NCBI GenBank assembly: GCA_022826185.1
Contig: JAJDVH010000258.1
Location: forward strand, 1 to 32,228
Source: Alphaproteobacteria bacterium
GTDB lineage: Bacteria > Pseudomonadota > Alphaproteobacteria > Bin95
Direction of reading: 5' to 3'
Length of the DNA stretch: 32,228 nt
Positions 5,744 through 29,344 of this stretch are shown here, piece after piece. Numbering within the stretch: position 1 is the stretch's first letter; each line of letters starts with the position of its first letter. The notes under the pieces were generated by a model. That model was given only the letters and a program-made list of their open reading frames with translations. It did not search any database and was not told the DNA's origin. The translations under genes and the position numbers were made by a program.

Positions 5744-6391
5744 ATGCCCGACGTTATCGTGAACGGTCCCGAGGGCCGGCTGGAAGCGCGCTACCATCAT
5801 GTCGACGACCAGGCGGCGCCCATCGCGCTGATGCTGCATCCGCATCCGCAGCATGGCGGCACGATGCACAACAAGGTCGTCTACAACCTGTTTCACTGCT
5901 TCGTCCGGCGCGGGTTCTCGGTCATGCGCTTCAACTTCCGCGGCGTCGGGCGCTCGCAGGGCGAATACGGGCGCGGGGAAGGCGAGCTCGCCGATGCGGC
6001 GGCCATTCTCGACCACATGCAAAGCCTCAGGAAGGACCCCGTCAAGGTCTGGATCGCGGGCTTTTCCTTCGGCGCCTGGATCGGCATGCAATTGCTGATG
6101 CGCCGGCCGGAAATCTCGGGCTTCATCTCCATCGCCCCGCCGGCCAACATGTACGACTTCTCCTTCCTGGCGCCCTGCCCGTCCTCGGGCCTGATCGTCA
6201 ACGGCACGCGGGACGAGATCGTGACGACGGACTCGGTGGAGAAGCTGGTCGAGAAGCTGCGCACCCAGCGCGGCATCGTCATCGACCACAAGGTCATTCC
6301 CGGCGCCAACCACCTGTTCACGCGCCATCTCGAACAGCTGAACAACGCGGTCGAGGCCTATCTGGACCGCCGCCTCGCCACCGGCGGCTAA
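5744..6391 (+). CDS. Alpha/beta hydrolase, copy 1 (cytosolic)
   Basis: This 215-aa serine hydrolase has the small dienelactone-hydrolase-like alpha/beta fold of widely conserved proteobacterial proteins of unknown substrate. The nucleophile elbow is GFSFG (S108), the likely acid is D157 in NGTRDEIV, and the histidine is H190 in GANH. An N-terminal LHPHPQHGG stretch forms the oxyanion region. No signal peptide is present: the in-frame sequence upstream of ATG 5744 has no leader character, though it resembles the linker of copy 2. A near-identical second copy lies at 16811-17461. The gene is divergent from the cysteine desulfurase, and its stop is 8 bp before a palindromic repeat element. The physiological substrate is unknown. 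Confidence 0.88.
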   Translation: MPDVIVNGPEGRLEARYHHVDDQAAPIALMLHPHPQHGGTMHNKVVYNLFHCFVRRGFSVMRFNFRGVGRSQGEYGRGEGELADAAAILDHMQSLRKDPVKVWIAGFSFGAWIGMQLLMRRPEISGFISIAPPANMYDFSFLAPCPSSGLIVNGTRDEIVTTDSVEKLVEKLRTQRGIVIDHKVIPGANHLFTRHLEQLNNAVEAYLDRRLATGG

Positions 6392-11310: not shown

Positions 11311-11505
11311 TACCAGCGGCATCGACTTGGGACTCATGTCTTCTTCTCGTCATGCCCGGACTTGTTCCGGGCATCTCCCTCAACCGTTTCCGTCCGGCCA
11401 AGCGACCGCATGGATGCCCGGAACAAGTCCGGGCATGACGGAAGGGGGAGATCGGGCGGCGGGCGTCGAATCTGTCATGGGTTCCGGTCAACGACCGCGG
11501 GTATA
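11310..11505. mobile_element. Palindromic MITE-like repeat element, second family
   Basis: The ends are inverted: left ATACCAGCGGC (from 11310), then GGGACTCATG; right, on the other strand, ATACCCGCGG, then GGAACCCATGAC. Subterminal arms repeat CATGCCCGGAC/TTGTTCCGGGCAT near 11351-11374 and again near 11411-11437. There is no transposase. A half copy lies at 24581. Small open frames here give peptides containing RHARTCSGHP and MPGTSPGMT, which recur as false genes in many alphaproteobacteria. The right end overlaps the last nine codons and stop of the minus-strand ATPase gene. Confidence 0.72.
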
Positions 11506-14180
11506 ACAGGGATCGGATCGGCCCGGCGGCAGTCCGCCAGCCGGATTGTCTTTGCGCCCAGCGTCTCGTAGCGGGCTTCGTGGCAGGTCAGGACCACGAT
11601 CTGGAGCGAGGCCGCCGCTTTCCTGAGCGCGAGTTCCATACGGCGGAAGCGCTCGTCGTCGCTGTTGACCAGCGGGTCGTCCAGGATCAGCGCGACCGGC
11701 CTGCCCTTCTCGCGCAACAGATCGGCCAGCGCCAGGCGGGTCAGCACGGCGACCTGCTCGCGCGCGCCGATGCTGAGCGTGGCGAAGGGTTCCTCGACCC
11801 CGTCCCGCCGAAGCGAGACGATTTCCAGGTCGTCCTCGCTCAGCCGCAACTCCGTCTCGGGGAAGAGCATGCGCAGATAAGGCTGCAAGCGCTCCCGCAC
11901 CGGCCCGAGGAAGGTCTCCTTCGCCTCCCGCTCCGCTTCGCGCAACGTCTCCAGCAACAGCTTCCACGCCTTGGCGTCCGCCTCGATCCGCGCCAGTTCG
12001 CCGCGGGCGATGTCGAGTTCGCCTCTCTTTTGCCCGAGTTCCTCCGCGAGGCCCCGCTGGCCGAGGGTGTGCAGTTCGACGGCGAGGTCGCGCTCGGCGC
12101 GCGCGCTGTCCCCGATCCGGGCTTGCAGCCGGTCGAGAGCCTCTTCCGCGCGCTGGCGTTCGATCCGCAACGCTTCCGGATTCATGGCGTCCCGCTCCGC
12201 GAGCACCGCTTCGTGCTCCGAGCGGCGTTTCGCCGCCTCGTTCGCCGCCGCCGCGGCCTGCTCGGCCAACGCCTCATCCGACGCGGCGCGGCGCGCTTCT
12301 TCCAGCGCGGCCCGGCGCCCTTCCGCCGCTTCCGCCCTCTGCCTGTGCTCCGCGTCCGCCTCTATGCGCCCTTCCCGCAGCCGATCATGCAGTTTGCGCG
12401 CCTCGTCCCGCCCCGATACCGCCTGCCCGGCCGCGCGTTCCGCCTCGTCCCGCTCCGCTAGCGCCGTCCGCTCGGCGGCCTGCGCGGTTTCGACATCGGG
12501 CGGTTCGCCCGCATCCGGCCCCGCCAGCGCGGACAGGCGGGCCCGCCGCTCCCGCACCGAGTCCCGAAGGGTATCGAGTCCTTCCGGCGCAAGGCCACGG
12601 AGTTCGCCCTTCAGGGTTTCCATTTCCGCCTGCGAGGCCTGTCTGGCGCGCAGGGCCGCCTCCGCGTCCGCCAGGTCTGTCCGGCCCAGGCGGCGCAGAT
12701 CCTCGCCCATCCGGTCTTCCAGGTCGGACAGGTCGGCCCGCAGCCGCGCCAGGTCCCGGCCGCCGGGAACGACCTCCAGCGCGCCGAAATCCTGAAGATG
12801 GAAAGTGCTGCGTTCGGTGACACGCAGGGCCTCGCCGGTATCGACGGGCTGCCCGTCCCGCGACACGCTCCGTCCGCCTTCCGGGGAAAAGGCGAGTGTA
12901 GCCGCGGCCGCCTCAAGCGCAGCTTCCAGCCTTATCTGCTCCTCGCGCAGCTTCTGCAGCCCGGAGACAATGTCCTCGTTCACCGGATTGGCGGCGAGCG
13001 CCTGCTCCCCGTGCTCGATCCGCTCCTCCAGCGCTTCGGCCTGCTTCAGCCGCTCGTCGAGCGTCTGCAAGCCTGCCGCGATCTCCGCCCGTTCGAGGGT
13101 TCGGCGCGCCGCCTCCCAGTCTGCGTTCGCCTCTCTCCGCCGGCTGTTGCAGGAGGCAAGAGCTTCCTCCGCTTCCGCCAGCCTCCGCCCGGCGTCGAGA
13201 TAGTCGGGCTCCAGTTCCTTCAGCGCCGCCTCCGCCTCGCCGGTCTGCCGGACAGTCGCCTCGACCTCTTCGACCAGCGCCAGCCGCATCTTCCGGGCGC
13301 CCTCGGCCGCCTCTCCGGCGCTTCGGGCCTGCTCCATTCGCGCCTCTGCGGTTTCGAGCCGGCCCTCCACCGCTTCAAGCCTGCGAAGAGCGGCCTCGGC
13401 CCCCTCGGCCTCCTCCTGCGCCCTCGCGAGCGCGCCGTCTCGCTCATAGCGCGCAAGGCTTTCCCGCAGCTTCCCGAGCCGCTCCACCTGCTCGTCATAG
13501 CCGCGGAGATCGGCTTCCAGCGCCTTGCACGCCTCCTCAAGCGCCTCCGCGTCCCTGCGGGGACCGCTCAACGCATCGCGTTCGCGGCCGGTCCGGGTGT
13601 AGTAGTCGCCGGCGCGCGCCTCCACGAGGTCCAGCAGCCGGCGGCCGCGCTCCCCGCCGAGCACCTGCCCGACTTCGCCTTCTATGGCTTGCCTCAGGAC
13701 CGCCTGGCTGTCCTCGTTCATGCCGAGCGGCTGGAAGGCGCGCCCCTGCTCCACCCAGAGCAGCCCGGCAAGGCCCCTGTGCTCCTCGCCGGCGGCGCCG
13801 CGCCCCGGCCGGGAGAAGCCGAGCAACTCCCGCAACCGGTCTTCCGCGGCCTCTCCCTCCCACCGGCCGCCGCCGCCTTCGACCAGCGCCGCCGGACCCC
13901 GGCCGAACGCCTTTTCCAGGCGGTAATCGGTCCCTGCGAGTTCGAAACCGACCTCGATCCACGGGCGCACGCCCCGCGCGCCGAACGGCATCATCTGCTC
14001 GACGCCCTGCCCGGTCAGGTTGTGCCGGTCGAAGAATGCGCTCTGGAGCGCCCTCAGCAGGGTGGACTTGCCCTCCTCATTGTCGCCGACGATGACGGTG
14101 ATGCCGGGGTCCAGGCCCTCGACCGCCACGCCCCGGGCGAGCTTGCGGAAGTTGCGAACGGCGAACCGGTCTATCCGCAT
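11475..14180 (-). CDS. SbcC/Rad50/YhaN-like AAA ATPase with long coiled coil
   Basis: A 901-aa SMC-family ATPase, the likely partner of the nuclease encoded just upstream in DNA double-strand-end processing. It has an N-terminal Walker A GDNEEGKST (32-40), long Ala/Glu/Arg-rich coiled-coil arms, a short beta-rich hinge-like insert in the middle (around SVSRDGQPVDTGE), a C-terminal signature LSIGAREQ and Walker B LILDD (831-835). No CxxC zinc hook is visible at the apex, unlike Rad50/SbcC, so it is closer to Bacillus YhaN. I chose ATG 14180, seven bases after GGGGGAG and four bases after the nuclease stop. The last residues (IPAVVDRNP) and the TGA are encoded by the palindromic element at 11310-11505. 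Confidence 0.85.
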   Translation of the reverse strand: MRIDRFAVRNFRKLARGVAVEGLDPGITVIVGDNEEGKSTLLRALQSAFFDRHNLTGQGVEQMMPFGARGVRPWIEVGFELAGTDYRLEKAFGRGPAALVEGGGGRWEGEAAEDRLRELLGFSRPGRGAAGEEHRGLAGLLWVEQGRAFQPLGMNEDSQAVLRQAIEGEVGQVLGGERGRRLLDLVEARAGDYYTRTGRERDALSGPRRDAEALEEACKALEADLRGYDEQVERLGKLRESLARYERDGALARAQEEAEGAEAALRRLEAVEGRLETAEARMEQARSAGEAAEGARKMRLALVEEVEATVRQTGEAEAALKELEPDYLDAGRRLAEAEEALASCNSRRREANADWEAARRTLERAEIAAGLQTLDERLKQAEALEERIEHGEQALAANPVNEDIVSGLQKLREEQIRLEAALEAAAATLAFSPEGGRSVSRDGQPVDTGEALRVTERSTFHLQDFGALEVVPGGRDLARLRADLSDLEDRMGEDLRRLGRTDLADAEAALRARQASQAEMETLKGELRGLAPEGLDTLRDSVRERRARLSALAGPDAGEPPDVETAQAAERTALAERDEAERAAGQAVSGRDEARKLHDRLREGRIEADAEHRQRAEAAEGRRAALEEARRAASDEALAEQAAAAANEAAKRRSEHEAVLAERDAMNPEALRIERQRAEEALDRLQARIGDSARAERDLAVELHTLGQRGLAEELGQKRGELDIARGELARIEADAKAWKLLLETLREAEREAKETFLGPVRERLQPYLRMLFPETELRLSEDDLEIVSLRRDGVEEPFATLSIGAREQVAVLTRLALADLLREKGRPVALILDDPLVNSDDERFRRMELALRKAAASLQIVVLTCHEARYETLGAKTIRLADCRRADPIPVIPAVVDRNP

Positions 14181-14184
14181 CGCC

Positions 14185-15315
14185 CTACTCCCCCGTTCCG
14201 ACATGGGTTTCGTAGAGCCGCACCAGCGCCATGGCGGCAACGGCCCGGTCGGGGTCGGCCTCGTCGCCCGCCCGGCTGCGCAGGCGCTCCACGGCCGTGC
14301 GCACGAACCCGCCCCTGTCTATGCGGTCCAGGTCGTCGTCGCTGGGCTCGTCCAGCAAGCCGTCTTCGCGGACATCCAGGTGGTGGAGCACGGCGTCCCA
14401 ATGTTCGAGGCGTTCGCGGAGCCTCGCGCGGGTCGCCAGGTCGATGGCTCCGGAGAGCGTCAACCGGAGAAGGCAGGTCCCCGGCTCCGGAGCCAGTCCG
14501 GCAATCTCCCGGTCGAGCGCGTCGATGTCGTCGGCATTGCGGACCGCCGCGGCCTTGGACCGCCAGGCAAAGCGGCCCGTCGGGACTTTCTCCACCTCGG
14601 GCGGCGCGCCCGGCTCGGAGATCGTCACGACCAGCGCATTTCCGGGGTCGGCAGAAGAGAAGCTGTCGGTTTCCGGCGTGCCGGAATACCAGGTGCGGTC
14701 ATTGACCCTCAGCGTCCCGTGCCAGTCTCCCAGCGCCAGGTAATCCAGCAGCGCGGCCTCGGCGCGGCCGGCGGCCACGGGGTTCGGAGCGCCGGAGGAG
14801 TCGCGAAGAAACTCGGGCACCGACCCGTGCGCCAGACCGATTCGCATGGCGCCCTCCGGCGTCTCCGCGCGGTCGAACCATGCCGTGAGATCTTCGATTT
14901 CGTGGCGGCGCCGCAGCACGGCCGGCAACACGGCGGCCCGGCCGTCGGCGAGCAACAGCGGCGTTTCCGGTTCGAGAGCCAGATGCACATTGGCGGGCGG
15001 CTCCCGGCGCCGCAGGCGCGTCCAGACCGAATCGGCGAGCGCCGCATCGTGATTGCCCGGGATGAACACCCAGTCGCCGGGAAACTGCTTCAGCGCCTCC
15101 AGCATCCGGATCAGCGTGCGCTCGGCCACGGCATTGGCGTCGAAGACATCGCCGGCCACCAGCACCGCGTCCGCGCCCCGCTCCGCCGCCAGCCTGCCCA
15201 CCGCCTTCACCGTCTCGATGCGGCTGTCCCGCAGCGCCGCGCCGGCATCGCCCGGGATGTTGGCGAAGCGCTTGCCGAGTTGCCAGTCGGCCGTGTGCAC
15301 GAATCGGAAGGTCAT
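14185..15315 (-). CDS. SbcD/Mre11/YhaO-like metallophosphoesterase DNA repair nuclease
   Basis: This 376-aa calcineurin-like phosphoesterase should bind two Mn2+ ions and cut DNA ends together with the downstream ATPase. Motifs in order are HTADWQLG (7-14), GDVFD (55-59), GNHD (87-90), AHGS with H163, and GDWHG (196-200). Motif I reads D-x-Q where classical Mre11/SbcD has D-x-H, and the last motif reads GDWHG where Mre11 has GHxH. I recall DWQ-type motifs in YhaO-like relatives, so this marks a subfamily rather than a dead enzyme. A C-terminal capping region follows residue 260. It is the first gene of a two-gene operon, with a 4-bp gap to the ATPase. Confidence 0.87.
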   Translation of the reverse strand: MTFRFVHTADWQLGKRFANIPGDAGAALRDSRIETVKAVGRLAAERGADAVLVAGDVFDANAVAERTLIRMLEALKQFPGDWVFIPGNHDAALADSVWTRLRRREPPANVHLALEPETPLLLADGRAAVLPAVLRRRHEIEDLTAWFDRAETPEGAMRIGLAHGSVPEFLRDSSGAPNPVAAGRAEAALLDYLALGDWHGTLRVNDRTWYSGTPETDSFSSADPGNALVVTISEPGAPPEVEKVPTGRFAWRSKAAAVRNADDIDALDREIAGLAPEPGTCLLRLTLSGAIDLATRARLRERLEHWDAVLHHLDVREDGLLDEPSDDDLDRIDRGGFVRTAVERLRSRAGDEADPDRAVAAMALVRLYETHVGTGE

Positions 15316-15342
15316 TTCTGAATACCTGTATGCCGTCGCGGA

Positions 15343-16128
15343 TCAAATTAGCCCGGCGGCGCGGACTTCCGGAAGGTAGGTGCGGCTGACGGGGACCTTG
15401 TGGCCGCCGGTGAGGCAAAGCGCCGGGCGGCCGTTTTCGCGCGTCGAGCCCGTGACATGCGCGCGGGACACCCAGTAGGAGCGGTGGACGCGCATGCCGT
15501 CGGCGGCCTCCAGCTCCGCGATGGCGTCCGCAAAGCGCATCAGCACGAGGTCGGAACCTTCCGTGGTGAAGGCCTCGACATAGTGGTCCGCCATCCGGAG
15601 ACAGACGAGGTCGCGGCCGATCCCGTGCGGCAGGCGGTCCAGGAAACGGGGCCGCGCGACGGCGGGCACATGCTCCCCCTGCTCTTGCGGGGCGGGCCGG
15701 CTGCGAATGACATGCACGACCGAGCTGATGACCAGCCCGATGATCGCAACGCCGAAATAGATCTCCGGCAGCCGGACAAGGCCGACATAGCCCGGCCGGA
15801 ACAGGGTTTCGGCGGCAAAGACGATCGCGGTTCCGGGCACGGCCACGAGAACCGCCACCGCCGCCACCGCCACCGCCTGCCGGCGGAGCGGCCGCTCCTG
15901 CGTCAGGTGCATCGCCAGGAGGTAGGCGCCTGCCCAGAGGCCCCAATTGCCGCTCATCGCCAGCGCCCAGTAGCCGGAGCGGGCCAGAGGCCCCATCGTG
16001 TCGTATGTGCCGAAAGGGCCGATGAAGGCGAACAGCACGACGACTCCCGCCAGCGCCGCCGCATGGCCGGCGACCTGCCTGCGTAATCCGCGAAGCGTGA
16101 ACTGCATATTCTGCAAACCGCGAAACAT
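15343..16128 (-). CDS. Membrane-anchored LytTR-domain DNA-binding regulator
   Basis: The 261-aa protein has four predicted membrane helices (about residues 22-38, 52-73, 84-106, 122-142), followed by a cytoplasmic LytTR DNA-binding domain (about 160-258) with the typical MADHYVEAF, FADAIAEL and RVHRSYWVSRAHV segments. No receiver or kinase domain is present, so this is a one-component membrane regulator. I preferred ATG 16128, with GGAAAGG six bases upstream, over the ATG at 16146. It is transcribed away from the DUF2141 gene with a 102-bp gap, so it may control itself and the DUF2141/hydrolase/carotenoid oxygenase genes. No LytTR binding repeat could be confirmed by eye. Confidence 0.87.
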   Translation of the reverse strand: MFRGLQNMQFTLRGLRRQVAGHAAALAGVVVLFAFIGPFGTYDTMGPLARSGYWALAMSGNWGLWAGAYLLAMHLTQERPLRRQAVAVAAVAVLVAVPGTAIVFAAETLFRPGYVGLVRLPEIYFGVAIIGLVISSVVHVIRSRPAPQEQGEHVPAVARPRFLDRLPHGIGRDLVCLRMADHYVEAFTTEGSDLVLMRFADAIAELEAADGMRVHRSYWVSRAHVTGSTRENGRPALCLTGGHKVPVSRTYLPEVRAAGLI

Positions 16129-16182
16129 CCGTTGCCTTTCCCGCATCGAAGCATGACTCCGGCTGCAGCCCCGTCAACATCT

Positions 16183-16221
16183 CCGGCGCGGCGCACCCGC
16201 CGCCCACACTGCAAACCGGAG
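16183..16221 (+). repeat. DUF2141 leader repeat, copy A
   Basis: The untranslated leader of the DUF2141 gene, from CCGGCGCGGCGCA to CCGGAG, recurs with few changes and a 5-bp insertion at 17533-17576 upstream of the carotenoid oxygenase. Confidence 0.75.
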
Positions 16222-16230
16222 AACGGAACG

Positions 16231-16692
16231 ATGAATGCACTCCCCGCAAGAAAGCTGGCAACGCTCGCCGCCGCCGCGCTGGCGCTGCTGGCGCCCGCCT
16301 TCGCGTCTGCCGCCGACCTGACCGTCCGTATCGAGGGCGTGCGCTCGGCCGACGGCGATATCCGCGTCGCCCTCCACCGCCGCGCCGACGGCGTGGACTT
16401 CCCCGATTCGGCCGGAATCGTGAAGGCGGCCATGCGCCCGGCAGCGAAGGCCGGCGACCTGGTGTTCGCCGGCCTGGCGCCCGGCGACTACGCCATCGCC
16501 GCCTTCCACGACGAGGACCGCGACGGCGACCTCGACACCAACCTGCTCGGCATCCCGACCGAGGGCTACGGCTTCTCCAACGAAGCGCGCGGCACTTTCG
16601 GGCCGCCCGACTTCGATGCCGCCGCCTTCACGATAAGGGCGGGCGAGGAGCGCCCTGCCGTCACGGTCAAGCTCGGCTACCCGGAGTCCTGA
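16231..16692 (+). CDS. DUF2141 domain-containing exported protein
   Basis: A 153-aa secreted protein. Residues 1-27 form a Sec signal peptide: a Lys/Arg n-region, an Ala/Leu core, and a cleavage site after AFASA. The mature domain is a DUF2141 beta-sandwich with the conserved segments GDIRVALH, GLAPGDYAIAAFHDEDRDGDLDTN and PTEGYGFSN. The acidic DEDRDGDLDTN loop looks metal- or calcium-binding. The family has no established function, although members are, from memory, sometimes found near carotenoid genes. GGAG lies nine bases before ATG 16231. The stop lies inside the 70-bp repeat shared with the carotenoid oxygenase leader, four bases before the start of the next gene. Confidence 0.87.
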   Translation: MNALPARKLATLAAAALALLAPAFASAADLTVRIEGVRSADGDIRVALHRRADGVDFPDSAGIVKAAMRPAAKAGDLVFAGLAPGDYAIAAFHDEDRDGDLDTNLLGIPTEGYGFSNEARGTFGPPDFDAAAFTIRAGEERPAVTVKLGYPES

Positions 16693-16750
16693 AGCCATGA
16701 AACCGCAGATTTCCCGCAGAGACGCGCTCCGCGCCGCCGGAAGCCTGCCC
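16681..16750 (+). repeat. 70-bp direct repeat, copy A (Tat leader of hydrolase copy 2)
   Basis: These bases are identical to 17571-17640. They cover the last codons and stop of the DUF2141 gene, the ribosome site GGAG, and the first 18 codons of a Tat signal peptide. Confidence 0.95.
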
Positions 16751-17461
16751 TTGCTGCTTGCCGCCGAGGCGGCAGGGGCGGCCGGACCGAAGGAACGGGA
16801 CTCCACGCCCATGCCCGACGTTTTCGTGAACGGCCCCGAGGGCCGGCTCGAAGCGCGCTACCATCATGTCGACGACGCCGCAGCCCCGATCGCGCTGATA
16901 CTGCACCCCCATCCGCAGCATGGCGGCACGATGCACAACAAGGTCGTCTACAACCTGTTTCACTGCTTCGTCCGGCGCGGGTTCTCGGTCATGCGCTTCA
17001 ACTTCCGCGGCGTCGGGCGCTCGCAGGGCGAATACGGGCGCGGAGAAGGCGAGCTCGCCGATGCGGCGGCCATTCTCGACCACATGCAAAGCCTCAGGAA
17101 GGACCCCGTCAAGGTCTGGATCGCGGGCTTTTCCTTCGGCGCCTGGATCGGCATGCAATTGCTGATGCGCCCGCCCGGGATTTCCGGCTTCATCTTCGTC
17201 GCTCCGCCGGCGAACATGTACGACTTCACTTTCCTCGCGCCCTGCCCGTCGTCCGGCCTGATCGTCAACGGCACGCGGGACGAGATCGTGACGACGGACT
17301 CGGTGGAGAAGCTGGTCGAGAAGCTGCGCACCCAGTGCGGCATCGTCATCGACCACAAGGTCATTCCCGGCGCCAACCATTTCTTCACCCGGCATCTCGA
17401 ACAGCTGAACGGTGCGGTCGAAGCCTATCTGCACAGGCGCCTCGCAGCCGACAAGCGCTGA
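16697..17461 (+). CDS. Alpha/beta hydrolase, copy 2, fused to a Tat signal peptide
   Basis: This frame of 254 aa joins a twin-arginine leader (ISRRDALRAAGSLPLLLAA, then an Ala-rich c-region, residues 1-31) to a paralogue of the hydrolase at 5744, which begins at residue 39 (an ATG at 16811). The catalytic Ser (GFSFG), Asp (TRDEIV) and His (GANH) are retained. The leader is identical to that of the downstream carotenoid oxygenase over 70 bp. If translated from 16697 the enzyme would be exported folded to the periplasm. Starting at 16811 would keep it in the cytosol, but no good ribosome site is seen there. GGAG lies ten bases before ATG 16697. It follows DUF2141 by 4 bp and probably shares its transcript. 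Confidence 0.83.
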   Translation: MKPQISRRDALRAAGSLPLLLAAEAAGAAGPKERDSTPMPDVFVNGPEGRLEARYHHVDDAAAPIALILHPHPQHGGTMHNKVVYNLFHCFVRRGFSVMRFNFRGVGRSQGEYGRGEGELADAAAILDHMQSLRKDPVKVWIAGFSFGAWIGMQLLMRPPGISGFIFVAPPANMYDFTFLAPCPSSGLIVNGTRDEIVTTDSVEKLVEKLRTQCGIVIDHKVIPGANHFFTRHLEQLNGAVEAYLHRRLAADKR

Positions 17462-17532
17462 CCCGGGTTTTCCTCCGGCGTCATGAGCCCGGCGGCGGCG
17501 CAGGCCGTGACATCGGCCAGACTTCCGCGCTC

Positions 17533-17576
17533 CCGGCGCGGCGCATCCGCCCCCCCCCCCACACTGCTAACCGGAG
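17533..17576 (+). repeat. DUF2141 leader repeat, copy B, with 11-C tract
   Basis: A diverged copy of 16183-16221. A homopolymer of 11 C residues (17550-17560) replaces the mixed CGC sequence of copy A. It then joins, at CCGGAG, to what is the 3' end of the DUF2141 gene in copy A (TCCTGA). This junction looks like a deletion scar. Confidence 0.75.
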
Positions 17577-17640
17577 TCCTGAAGCCATGAAACCGCAGAT
17601 TTCCCGCAGAGACGCGCTCCGCGCCGCCGGAAGCCTGCCC
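17571..17640 (+). repeat. 70-bp direct repeat, copy B (Tat leader of carotenoid oxygenase)
   Basis: Identical to 16681-16750, at a distance of 890 bp. It contains the ribosome site and the first 18 codons of the carotenoid oxygenase. Confidence 0.95.
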
Positions 17641-19071
17641 CTGCTGCTCGCCGCAGGGGCTGTGAGGGCGTCCGGCGCTGCCGGCGAAGACGAGGCGCTC
17701 GCCTTCGCCACCGCACAGGCGGAGCGGTTGTCCGCGCCGTTGCAAACCCTGCGAGGCAGGCTCCCCGCCGGACTCGTCGGCACCCTCTGGCGGAACGGCC
17801 CGGCCGAGCATGACCGCTTCGGTCATCGCTACGGACACTGGTTCGACGGCGACGGCATGATCCAGGCCTTCCGGTTCGACGGCGCGGGCGTCACCCACCG
17901 GGCGCGTATCCTGGACACGCCCAAACGCCGCCGCGAAGCGCAAGCCGGGCGGCGCATGCTGCCCGCTTTCGGCTCGATGCCGCCCGACCCGGCGGAAACC
18001 CGGCGCCCCGACGACATGAACGCCGCCAACACCTCCATGGTCGTCCATGCCGGACGCCATATGGCGCTCTGGGAAGGCGGGTCGGCGCTGGAATTCGATC
18101 CCGGGACGCTGGACGCCGGCGGCTTCGTGGAATGGCGCAAGGACATCGCCGGCGCGCCCTTCTCCGCCCATCCGAAGGTCGAGGCCGACGGCACGATGTG
18201 GAATATCGGCTACCTGCCGGTGCCGCGCCCGATGCTGATCTTCTACCGCATCGACCCGGCGGGGCGGCTCGCGAAGGTGAATGTGTTGCCGATGGCGCCG
18301 CTCGGCCTCACCCACGATTTCGTGGTGACGGAGCGGCGGCTGGTCGTGCTGCTGACCCCCTTCGTGCTGGACCGGGACAGGTTCGCCTCCGGCCACACGC
18401 CCATCCTCGACGCCCATGTCTGGCGGCCGGAGCTGGGCGTGCGCGCGCTGGTCGTCGACAAGGACAGCCTGGAGGTCGAGCGCCGCCACGAGCTGCCGCC
18501 CGGCTTCCATTTCCATCACGGCAATGGCTGGGAGGAGGCGGACGGCACGATCCGGCTCGATCTCTGCCAGGCACCGGACCCGGCCTTCGTCACCCGCGAG
18601 TTCCGCGATGTCATGCGGGGCGACACCCGCTTCCGCTCGCAGCACCCGGTCTATCGGCGGGCCGTCCTCCGCCCGGACGGGAGCGCCGAGTACGAGCATG
18701 GCGGGACGGTCGCCGCCGACTTCCCGCGCATCGACCCCCGCCGCCTCGGCCGGCGCCACGACATGACCTTCGCGCTGGCGGGCGTGGACGAGCCCATTGG
18801 CTGGCCGCTCCGGCGCGTTTCGCGGTTCGCGCCCGGCGAGGCGGACGGTTGGACCTGGCCCCGGCACCGGATACCGGAGGAGCATGTATTCGTGCCCCGC
18901 GGCCCCGGCGAGGGCGAAGGCTGGCTGCTCGGCCCGTTCCTGGACCTCCGGCGGCGCGCCTCGGGCCTCGCCGTCTTCGAGGCAGAGCGCCTCGCCGACG
19001 GCCCGGTCTGGGAAGGCATTCTCCCCTACCCCCTGCCGCTCGCCCTGCACGGCACCTTCGCCCCGGCGTGA
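17587..19071 (+). CDS. Carotenoid oxygenase family protein with Tat signal
   Basis: A 494-aa member of the RPE65/carotenoid cleavage dioxygenase family, seven-bladed beta-propellers that bind Fe(II) through four histidines and split carotenoid or stilbenoid double bonds. Candidate ligands are H195 (SAHPKVEADG), H243 (LTHDFVV), H310 (FHHGNGWE) and H488 (LHGTF). The family hallmark GHWFDGDGMIQAF is at 83-95. Residues 1-33 form a Tat signal peptide with ISRRDALR, so export of the folded iron enzyme is expected. Its leader duplicates that of the hydrolase upstream. No carotenoid biosynthesis gene is in the window, so the substrate is open. It is probably coexpressed with DUF2141. Confidence 0.9.
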   Translation: MKPQISRRDALRAAGSLPLLLAAGAVRASGAAGEDEALAFATAQAERLSAPLQTLRGRLPAGLVGTLWRNGPAEHDRFGHRYGHWFDGDGMIQAFRFDGAGVTHRARILDTPKRRREAQAGRRMLPAFGSMPPDPAETRRPDDMNAANTSMVVHAGRHMALWEGGSALEFDPGTLDAGGFVEWRKDIAGAPFSAHPKVEADGTMWNIGYLPVPRPMLIFYRIDPAGRLAKVNVLPMAPLGLTHDFVVTERRLVVLLTPFVLDRDRFASGHTPILDAHVWRPELGVRALVVDKDSLEVERRHELPPGFHFHHGNGWEEADGTIRLDLCQAPDPAFVTREFRDVMRGDTRFRSQHPVYRRAVLRPDGSAEYEHGGTVAADFPRIDPRRLGRRHDMTFALAGVDEPIGWPLRRVSRFAPGEADGWTWPRHRIPEEHVFVPRGPGEGEGWLLGPFLDLRRRASGLAVFEAERLADGPVWEGILPYPLPLALHGTFAPA

Positions 19072-19131
19072 AGGCAGCCGGGCGTGAGCGCACCGGCGGG
19101 CGCGCGTTGACTTCCGGCCCTGCTTGCCGTC

Positions 19132-19368
19132 ATGCTCGCCTCCATGGCGCAGGCATTCGACACACTGGCGGCGGCCAAGCGGCTGCGGGACGCCGGTATG
19201 AATCAGGAGCAGGCTGAAGCCGTTGCCGCCGCCGTGCGCGAGGGGCAGGGCGATCTTGTCACGAAGGCCGACCTTCGGGCGGAACTCGCCGGGTTGGAGC
19301 GCCGGATGATCCTGTTTGCGCTTGCCCTCGTCGGCGCGTTGTTCGCGGCGATCAAACTCGTTCCGTAA
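19132..19368 (+). CDS. Small coiled-coil protein with C-terminal membrane anchor (DUF1640-like)
   Basis: This 78-aa protein resembles the short bacterial relatives of the DUF1640/CCDC90 family. It has an N-terminal AFDTLAAAKRLRDAG helix, a QAEAVAAAV segment, LVTKADLRAELAGLERRM forming a coiled coil, and one membrane helix (about residues 58-77). The family is linked in mitochondria to membrane complexes; the bacterial role is unknown. The start could be ATG 19132 or ATG 19144 (MAQAFDT), and neither has a clear ribosome site. Its TAA overlaps the ATG of a second, shortened copy (TAATG). A stub of the same gene start recurs at 19584. Confidence 0.75.
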   Translation: MLASMAQAFDTLAAAKRLRDAGMNQEQAEAVAAAVREGQGDLVTKADLRAELAGLERRMILFALALVGALFAAIKLVP

Positions 19369-19505: not shown

Positions 19506-19583
19506 CACCCGCCATCCGCTGACCGTCCCGCTGAGGCAAGACCCCGGCCCGGCGCTCGTTGACGCCCGGACGGGGTTGCCGTC

Positions 19584-19628
19584 ATGCTTGCCTCCGGGAC
19601 GCAGGCATTCGACATACTGGCGGCCTGA
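19584..19628 (+). pseudogene. Stub of a third copy of the small coiled-coil gene
   Basis: The 14 codons from ATG 19584 to TGA 19628 read MLASGTQAFDILAA, against MLASMAQAFDTLAA at 19132. Similarity extends upstream across GTTGAC and TTGCCGTC, and briefly downstream (CGGCTGCG), then ends. The coding part beyond residue 14 is lost. It is a remnant of duplication rather than a working gene. Confidence 0.7.
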
Positions 19629-26842: not shown

Positions 26843-27564
26843 AGCCGCCCCGCGTCACCGCCGGCGACGCCCTGTTCCTCGACCTCGACGGGACGCTGAT
26901 CGAAATCGCGCCCGCCCCGGACGCCGTGCGGCCCGCGCGCGGCCTGCCGGCGCTGCTCGAAACCCTGTCGCGGCGCAGCGGGTCGGCGCTTGCGATCGTC
27001 AGCGGCCGGCGCGTTTCCGAAATTGACCGGATCCTGGCGCCGTTGACCCTGCCCGCCGCCGGCCTGCACGGTCTCGAACGGCGCTCCGCGGGCGGAGCTT
27101 TCCACCCGCCCCCTGCCCTGCCCCGCCATGACGAGCTCCGGGCCGCGCTGCGGGACTTCGCGGCCGGCCATCCGGGCCTCCTGCTGGAAGACAAGGGCGC
27201 GGCGCTCGCCGTGCATTACCGCGCGCGGCCCGACCTCTGCGCGTCGGTAGCTGCTACCGTAGAGGCGGCGCTGGGCGGCGCCCGGCGGGGAATCGCCGTC
27301 CAGCGCGGAAAGGCGGTGATCGAACTCCGTCCCGAGGGGGCGGACAAGGGCACGGCCGTAACGGCGTTCATGTCCGAACCGCCATTCGCCGGCCGCCGCC
27401 CGGTGTTTGCCGGCGACGACTTAACCGACGAAGCTGCCTTCCGCGCCGTGCGTGCGAAGGGCGGCGTGACCGTACGCGTCGGCGGCGACGGCGCAACCGA
27501 CGCCGAGTGGCGCCTCGCGGATGTCGCGGCGGTCCATGCCTGGCTGGCTGCAATGGAGGGATGA
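26839..27564 (+). CDS. otsB: Trehalose-6-phosphate phosphatase
   Basis: This 241-aa HAD-superfamily phosphatase converts trehalose 6-phosphate to trehalose in the cytosol. The nucleophile motif is DLDGT (15-19), motif II is IVSGR (53-57), K170 precedes the third motif, and the metal-binding motif is GDDLTDE (192-198), characteristic of OtsB. Length is normal. The start ATG overlaps the upstream amidohydrolase stop, and the GH15 gene begins one base after its stop, so it is tightly coupled on both sides. Together with otsA two genes later it completes the OtsAB pathway. Confidence 0.93.
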   Translation: MKPPRVTAGDALFLDLDGTLIEIAPAPDAVRPARGLPALLETLSRRSGSALAIVSGRRVSEIDRILAPLTLPAAGLHGLERRSAGGAFHPPPALPRHDELRAALRDFAAGHPGLLLEDKGAALAVHYRARPDLCASVAATVEAALGGARRGIAVQRGKAVIELRPEGADKGTAVTAFMSEPPFAGRRPVFAGDDLTDEAAFRAVRAKGGVTVRVGGDGATDAEWRLADVAAVHAWLAAMEG

Positions 27565-27565
27565 G

Positions 27566-29344
27566 ATGCGCTCGCTCGAACTCAGCATGATCGGCAACAG
27601 CAGCTACGCCGCACTGATGGACCCGCGCGCGCGCATCGTATGGGCCTGCATGCCGCGCTTCGACGGCAACCCCGTATTCTGCGACCTGCTGGAGCCGGAG
27701 ACGGAAATCGGGTTCTACGAGATCGAGATCGAAGGTTTCCAGCGCAGCGAGCAGACATACCGGCCCAACTCGGCCATCGTCGAAACCTGCCTGTTCGCGG
27801 AAAACGGCGCCGCCATCGAGATCCTGGACTTCGCGCCCCGGTTCAAGCAGTTCGGGCGGCTCTTCCGGCCGTTGAGCCTCGTGCGGCGCATCCGCCGGCT
27901 GGGGGGCGCGCCGCGCATCCGCATAAGACTGCGCCCCGCCAGCAATTATGGCGCCGAACCCGCCCAGGTGACGCGCGGCAGCAATCACATCCGCTATATC
28001 CTGCCGGACCATGTCCTGCGCCTGACCACGGAAGTGCCGGTCTCCTTCGTGTATGACGAGACGTCGTTCCTCCTGGACAAGCCTGTCGATCTCATCCTGA
28101 CGCAGGATGAGGCGCTGACGCGGCCGGTGCATGAGGTCGCGCGCGAGTTCGAGGAGCGGACCGACGAGTACTGGCGCGAATGGGCGCGCTACCTGGCCGT
28201 GCCGTTCGAGTGGCAGGACGCCGTCATACGCGCGGCGATCACGCTCAAGCTCTGTTCGGTCGAGGACAGCGGCGCCATCGTCGCGGCCGTCACCACCTCG
28301 GTGCCGGAGGCCGCGGGCACGGAGCGCAACTGGGACTACCGCTTCTGCTGGTTGCGCGACGCCTATTTCACCATCCGCGCGCTCAATCGCCTCGGCGCGA
28401 CGCGCACGATGGAAGAGTTCCTCCGCTACATTCTCAATATCGTCGCCTCAAGCCCGGACGGCCGCCTGCAGCCCGTGTTCGGCGTCCAGATGGAGACGAC
28501 GCTCTCGGAGTCCTCCGTCGAAACGCTGGCCGGCTATCGCGGCCACAGCCCCGTGCGCGTCGGCAACCTCGCCTATGTGCAGACCCAGCACGATGTTTAC
28601 GGCGCCGTCGTGCTCGCCTGCGCGCAGGCCTTTTTCGACCGGCGCATCGACCTGCATGGCGACGACCGGCTGTTCGAGACCCTGGAGCGCATCGGCGAGA
28701 CGGCGGCGCGCATGTTCGACCAGCCCGATGCCGGCCTCTGGGAGCTGCGCGGGCGCGAGCGCCCCCACACCTTCTCGGCGCTGATGTGCTGGGCCGCCTG
28801 CGATCGCCTGGCCCGGATCGCCATGCAGCTCGACCATCCGGACCGCGCATCCGTGTGGAACGGGCACGCCCGGACGATCCGCGCCCGGATCGAACGCGAC
28901 GGCTGGAACGAGGAGAAGCAGGCCTATGTCAGCGCGTTCGGCGGCACGGAGGTGGATGCCGCCCTGCTGCTGATGCACGAACTCTCGTTCTGCGAGGCCG
29001 ACGATCCCCGGTTCCTCGGCACCATCGCCGCCGTGGAACGCGAGCTGCGCCGCGGCGACCATGTGTTCCGCTATGTCGAGGAGGACGATTTCGGGACGCC
29101 GCACAACGCATTCAATGTCTGCACTTTCTGGTATATCGATGCGCTGGCGGCGGTCGGCCGCCGGGACGAGGCGCGGCGGCTGTTCGAGAACATGCTCGCC
29201 TGCCGGAACCGGGCGGGGCTGCTGTCGGAAGACCTGGACACCAGGACGAACGAATTGTGGGGCAACATTCCCCAGACCTACAGCATGGTCGGCCTGATCG
29301 TGTCGGCGCTGCGGCTTTCCAGGTCCTGGGAGGAAGCGTTCTGA
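27566..29344 (+). CDS. Glycoside hydrolase family 15 protein (probable trehalase)
   Basis: A 592-aa GH15 enzyme. The N-terminal beta-sandwich (about 1-200) leads to the (alpha/alpha)6 barrel with RNWDYRFCWLRDAYF (254-268), the proposed acid E393 in GLWELRGRE, and the proposed base E555 in LLSEDLD, followed by NELWGNIPQTYS. No signal peptide is present, so it acts in the cytosol. GH15 includes glucoamylases and also mycobacterial-type trehalases. The position between otsB and otsA makes trehalose the likeliest substrate, which is inference from context. GGAGGG precedes ATG 27566. The otsA start follows its stop by 13 bp. Confidence 0.9.
   Translation: MRSLELSMIGNSSYAALMDPRARIVWACMPRFDGNPVFCDLLEPETEIGFYEIEIEGFQRSEQTYRPNSAIVETCLFAENGAAIEILDFAPRFKQFGRLFRPLSLVRRIRRLGGAPRIRIRLRPASNYGAEPAQVTRGSNHIRYILPDHVLRLTTEVPVSFVYDETSFLLDKPVDLILTQDEALTRPVHEVAREFEERTDEYWREWARYLAVPFEWQDAVIRAAITLKLCSVEDSGAIVAAVTTSVPEAAGTERNWDYRFCWLRDAYFTIRALNRLGATRTMEEFLRYILNIVASSPDGRLQPVFGVQMETTLSESSVETLAGYRGHSPVRVGNLAYVQTQHDVYGAVVLACAQAFFDRRIDLHGDDRLFETLERIGETAARMFDQPDAGLWELRGRERPHTFSALMCWAACDRLARIAMQLDHPDRASVWNGHARTIRARIERDGWNEEKQAYVSAFGGTEVDAALLLMHELSFCEADDPRFLGTIAAVERELRRGDHVFRYVEEDDFGTPHNAFNVCTFWYIDALAAVGRRDEARRLFENMLACRNRAGLLSEDLDTRTNELWGNIPQTYSMVGLIVSALRLSRSWEEAF

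Follow-up and report, generated by a model that had tools for sequence, protein, structure and literature searches.

Chimeric genes made by short-junction (SJ) tandem duplications are known from laboratory selection, where they are quick to revert; in Staphylococcus aureus, duplications of this type, with 7-8 bp repeats and units of 1.2-1.9 kb, create the chimeras nusG'-'sigH and rplK'-'sigH (PMC3486894). Gene fusions born of deletions have also been described in bacteria, as new genes arising from fragments of existing genes through structural change (PMC12803068, a preprint). In Salmonella cultures, spontaneous short-homology duplications and deletions are frequent in growing cells (PMC3411829), so the steps proposed below for the present locus would be ordinary ones; the Salmonella rearrangements were spontaneous in culture and not fixed, unlike those described here.

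We analysed a stretch of 32,228 nucleotides (the window), contig 39 of a 4.5-Mb alphaproteobacterial genome (G000), and compared it with seven other genomes of the same genus (G001-G007). The close relatives are catalogued as Alphaproteobacteria metagenome-assembled genomes in the genome collection and, judging from their names, several are probably sponge-associated. The locus of interest (Table 1) fits a chimeric gene born at a rearrangement join, a known kind, the duplicated block of which would since have been trimmed away, unlike an unaltered SJ duplication. The proposed origin resembles that of the S. aureus sigH chimeras in its tandem duplication, perhaps its short-homology join, the in-frame connection of the 5′ part of a downstream gene to an upstream gene, the translation start supplied by that downstream gene, and the survival of both parents intact (PMC3486894). 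The sigH duplications were laboratory-selected and reversible and had units of the size given above, whereas the present structure is fixed in two species, appears trimmed of redundant DNA and has acquired a Tat signal. It also differs from the fusions of PMC12803068, which are made by deletions; here a duplication (or a template switch) would have made the fusion, with deletions only trimming it.

Table 1. Features of the rearranged locus and of the hydrolase gene upstream of it (window coordinates; SD, Shine-Dalgarno sequence).
Feature	Position	Strand	Remarks
Original (donor-type) alpha/beta hydrolase	5744-6391	+	Upstream of the locus, same strand
Original DUF2141 leader	16147-16230	+	Source of the copy, 16183-16221; SD CCGGAG at 16216-16221; conserved in six other genomes of the genus
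DUF2141 gene (PF09912)	16231-16692	+	3′ end with CCGGAG at 16681-16686, the ancestral oxygenase SD
Chimeric gene: oxygenase Tat signal (about the first 30 codons) in frame with second alpha/beta hydrolase copy	16697-17461	+	Same fusion in G005
Join 1: oxygenase Tat region to hydrolase 5′ flank	16768-16785	+	GGCGGCAGG at 16768-16776
3′ flank of hydrolase copy	17462-17530	+	92% identical to 3′ flank of the single G007 hydrolase; -35-like GTGACA at 17507-17512
Join 2: hydrolase 3′ flank to DUF2141 leader copy	17530-17533	+	
DUF2141 leader copy, now the oxygenase leader	17533-17576	+	
C11 run within leader copy	17550-17560	+	Absent from G005
Join 3: CCGGAG, where DUF2141 leader meets DUF2141 3′ end	17571-17576	+	Proposed site of the lost second DUF2141; placed as oxygenase SD
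Intact carotenoid oxygenase (PF03055)	17587-19071	+	Own Tat signal

Ancestral gene order and the repeated leader

In five of the seven other genomes (G001, G002, G003, G004 and G007) the DUF2141 gene is followed directly by the oxygenase, the ATG of which lies 3-4 nt past the DUF2141 stop; there is no leader between the two genes, and each genome has one close hydrolase gene, located elsewhere. G005 carries the arrangement of the window, join for join, at all three joins, while G006 (75% complete) gave no match to DUF2141 or to the oxygenase. Among 80 wider relatives of the oxygenase, a DUF2141 gene lies upstream in 77, and a hydrolase of this kind stands between the two in none. These comparisons support DUF2141 directly before the oxygenase as the ancestral order. 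The preliminary description of this DNA had suggested looking for that order in relatives without the hydrolase copy, and the five genomes of the genus provide it; no relative was found in which the leader precedes the oxygenase and the DUF2141 gene is missing.

The region in front of the intact oxygenase repeats two parts of the locus. Read directly from the window, 17571-17640 matches 16681-16750, where the DUF2141 gene ends and the oxygenase starts, at every one of its 70 bases, and a 110-nt repeat with 91% identity extends over 16676-16785 and 17566-17675. The preceding bases, 17533-17570, can be aligned with 16183-16215 with a single gap, which is located at the C tract; the alignment of the leader copy with the DUF2141 leader scores 37, above all of 2000 dinucleotide shuffles (mean 18, maximum 35). 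The oxygenase leader of G005, which is without the C tract, agrees with the DUF2141 leader of the window at 32 of 34 aligned bases with one 1-nt gap (local score 52). CCGGAG occurs at the three places given in Table 1, each time at the Shine-Dalgarno position, 9-10 nt 5′ of an ATG. What the preliminary description had read here, namely a copy of the DUF2141 leader running into a copy of the DUF2141 end and oxygenase start, with CCGGAG both in that leader and at the DUF2141 3′ end, is borne out by these alignments. They support an oxygenase leader composed of the final ~40 nt from the leader of DUF2141 and the DUF2141 end/oxygenase start, apparently fused at CCGGAG. The T at 17568 agrees with the DUF2141 end (GGCTAC) and not with the leader (TGCAAA); the switch at join 3 may lie a few bases before CCGGAG, or 17568 may have mutated.

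An assembly error was considered as the origin of the rearrangement and ruled out, because the structure recurs in a second species, G005, on a 234-kb contig of its own. No plasmid record covered 80% of the locus, partial matches being to separate genes only, at 60-80% identity. Elsewhere in the window, downstream of the oxygenase, there is a 74-nt repeat with 84% identity (19099-19172 and 19551-19624).

The fusion gene and its joins

The hydrolase part of the chimeric gene is a second copy of the upstream hydrolase, with 94% amino acid identity. The fusion encodes 254 residues and is intact in both species (G000 and G005), with the oxygenase Tat codons in frame with the hydrolase in each; the hydrolase copies of the two form a single clade (support 0.98). 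Between G000 and G005, the hydrolase part of the fusion has accumulated 22 synonymous and 6 non-synonymous changes (dN/dS 0.078). By this measure the fusion is a maintained gene under purifying selection, since the ratio is low, like that of the original genes.

Both fusions contain MKPQISRRDALRAAGSLPLLLAAEAAGAAG, and their N termini have a twin-arginine motif (SRRDALR), a hydrophobic stretch and an A-x-A site. From these features, which were judged by eye, the fused hydrolase is probably exported via the Tat pathway. The native hydrolase start (ATG 16811) and the AAGGAA upstream of it are both still present in the fusion gene, so that a cytoplasmic form could also be produced. The hydrolase matches PF12146 above the family cut-off (alpha/beta hydrolase fold, Hydrolase_4 and related; E 4e-14), and the catalytic motif GFSFG (GxSxG) is kept in all copies. 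Its closest PDB relative, Atu1826 (2i3d; E 6e-87), is a relative of the whole hydrolase domain and aligns only from approximately the native start; nothing in it corresponds to the Tat part of the fusion.

At join 1, the oxygenase Tat region continues in frame into the hydrolase, entering at the hydrolase 5′ flank. Four genomes (G000, G003, G005 and G007) have GGCGGCAGG in the hydrolase 5′ flank and two (G002 and G004) have it in the oxygenase; join 1 falls a few bases beyond it and is not clean microhomology. The hydrolase copy is followed by ~70 bases that match the sequence after the single G007 hydrolase (92% identity), and the match stops where the leader copy starts (17530/17531). Almost no sequence is shared at this second join; no oxygenase remnant follows the hydrolase copy, the 3′ flank of which passes straight into the leader copy. 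A cysteine desulfurase next to the G007 hydrolase identifies this as the original locus. As sources of 17462-17530, the hydrolase 3′ flanks of G000, G005, G003, G006 and G002 were also tried and rejected, their local alignments being no better than chance; the source was the G007-type flank. In both G000 and G005 the sequence that now follows the upstream hydrolase differs from the copied one, so a G007-like hydrolase locus must have served as donor.

Proposed origin of the locus

With moderate confidence, we propose that a tandem duplication followed by two deletions, the simplest history, explains the locus. In the ancestor, the hydrolase, several genes, the leader, DUF2141 and the oxygenase would have lain in this order on a single strand. 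A short-junction tandem duplication of ~6-8 kb would have joined the Tat-signal region of the oxygenase to the 5′ flank of the upstream hydrolase, yielding the Tat-hydrolase fusion at the join and leaving an intact oxygenase at the right end. A later deletion, running between the 3′ flank of the hydrolase and the second leader, would have produced join 2, and another, in which the second DUF2141 was lost between its two CCGGAG Shine-Dalgarno sites, would have produced join 3. The oxygenase would be left with its own Shine-Dalgarno sequence, preceded by the terminal part of the DUF2141 leader. We infer that the duplication and the deletions were separate steps, and that they took place in this order.

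Several features of the chromosome are consistent with this proposal. The copied pieces (hydrolase, leader, DUF2141 end and oxygenase) are colinear with the chromosome in both order and orientation. On the strand that carries DUF2141, the hydrolase is found 10.5 kb upstream of it in G000, 6 kb in G005 and 7.5 kb in G004, and in G000 and G005 both parents are intact on one strand, with the hydrolase upstream and the oxygenase downstream. The lack of an oxygenase remnant after the hydrolase would follow from the duplication having begun at the hydrolase. Against the duplication count the position of the hydrolase on the opposite strand in the outgroup, G001, the near lack of shared sequence at join 2, the absence of a clean microhomology at join 1 and the need for a G007-like donor. 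None of the genes that separate the hydrolase from the leader recurs after the hydrolase copy; because the duplicated segment is no longer whole, the model needs the two later deletions, and the locus would be derived from an SJ duplication and not be an unaltered one. An intermediate, with either two DUF2141 genes or a whole duplicated block, was not found among the genomes examined, which also speaks against the proposal.

The main rival is a single replication-based event that would yield the same three joins through three template switches. Replication would have jumped back from the oxygenase start to the hydrolase upstream, then forward from the 3′ flank of that gene into the DUF2141 leader, and finally, at CCGGAG, out of the leader into the DUF2141 end, continuing through the oxygenase; in that case a second DUF2141 never existed. 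Such an event requires no intermediate, in keeping with none having been found, and the short or little homology at joins 2 and 3 suits it; it gives no reason for the pieces to have kept their chromosomal order and orientation, as they must after duplication and deletion. This last point has modest weight, and we consider template switching possible, if rather unlikely.

A third history, that of the preliminary description, begins with tandem duplication of DUF2141 and the oxygenase start; the second DUF2141 is then deleted, and a hydrolase copy inserts into the first of the two oxygenase copies. Both the leader copy and the CCGGAG join are explained in this way, and that part stands, as the DUF2141 leader is joined to the DUF2141 end in just the way that a deleted second DUF2141 would leave. 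The insertion is not supported: the rest of the first oxygenase copy should follow the hydrolase, and in its place the 3′ flank abuts the leader copy at 17530/17531, so that the hydrolase would have had to insert exactly on the duplication junction, which makes this order of events highly improbable. That the oxygenase leader is original, with DUF2141 and the hydrolase added later, can be dismissed almost entirely, since nothing but the repeat itself speaks for it and it is refuted by the five genomes of the genus that have the oxygenase without the hydrolase copy, and DUF2141 directly before it without a leader, the wider relatives likewise having DUF2141 upstream.

Expression and distribution in the genus

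The oxygenase leader had been described as promoter-like, which was not confirmed: no sigma-70-type site was found in 16000-17700. Because the leader was kept only in its final ~40 bases, as far as the Shine-Dalgarno sequence, the retained part would mainly be a translation-initiation region. The GTGACA in the hydrolase 3′ flank is followed in its G007 counterpart, after 18 bases, by TAGGCT, in place of which the window has TCCCGG owing to join 2; this element, if a promoter, has probably lost its -10 element in the window. Similar elements (GCAGGCCGTGACAT..., then TAG or TAC) precede other genes in the genus. A dispersed promoter-like element of the form GCAGGCCGTGACAT(C/T)GG..GAGAAATCCGGGCTA precedes two or more further gene families of the genus (17499-17530 in the window; loci L197, L199, L200, L201, L203 and L205), with a version in the G007 hydrolase 3′ flank. 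The oxygenase may be transcribed together with DUF2141 and the fusion gene.

The predicted RNA fold of the oxygenase leader is no more stable than those of shuffles (z 0.49), and that of the DUF2141 leader is weakly more stable (z -1.24). In the DUF2141 leader (16180-16221), a CTCCGG could pair with the Shine-Dalgarno CCGGAG around a small hairpin and so might sequester it; the core CCGG is kept in most relatives. The C11 run lies ~10 bases 5′ of the oxygenase Shine-Dalgarno sequence, where G005 has CCGCCCG. It is the sole single-base run of at least 8 in the window, and one of eight C or G runs of at least 9 in the 4.5-Mb genome; it could reflect slippage affecting expression, or an assembly error.

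Three genes (the ABC transporter, the original hydrolase and the gene at 27521-29341) place G000 as sister to G003, a genome without the rearrangement; the last of the three also places G005 as sister to G007, which is likewise without it. The identity of G000 to G003 is 95-98% at 15.1-15.6 kb and 96-99% at 18.0-18.7 kb, and only 82-93% over the intervening windows (16.2-17.8 kb). The structure was either brought into one lineage by homologous recombination or lost from others; given the strong mosaicism of this locus across the genus, neither is firmly preferred here.

Further variation was seen to the left of the locus. The membrane part of a LytTR-domain protein (15570-15960) is ~20% different from that of G003, next to the right-hand gene end at 15070-15570, which is 95-98% identical; 15570-15960 is likely a recombination tract. 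SbcC- and SbcD-like genes (11475-15315) are present in G000 and, at least partly, in G003; they do not lie between the same neighbours in G005, G004 and G007, and a search for SbcC gave no match in these three.

Taken as a whole, the locus appears to be a stable natural end product of rearrangement, in which each of the three joins can still be read, while sister species retain the ancestral state and selection acts on the new gene. We tentatively suggest, while regarding it as somewhat doubtful, that one duplication join turned a cytoplasmic enzyme into an exported one, that trimming of the redundant DNA stabilised the gene, and that the resulting cassette spread here between species of the genus by homologous recombination. 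On the history proposed above, the locus provides a worked example of a cytoplasmic enzyme gaining an export signal, with the leftover duplicated DNA cut to a 44-base leader.
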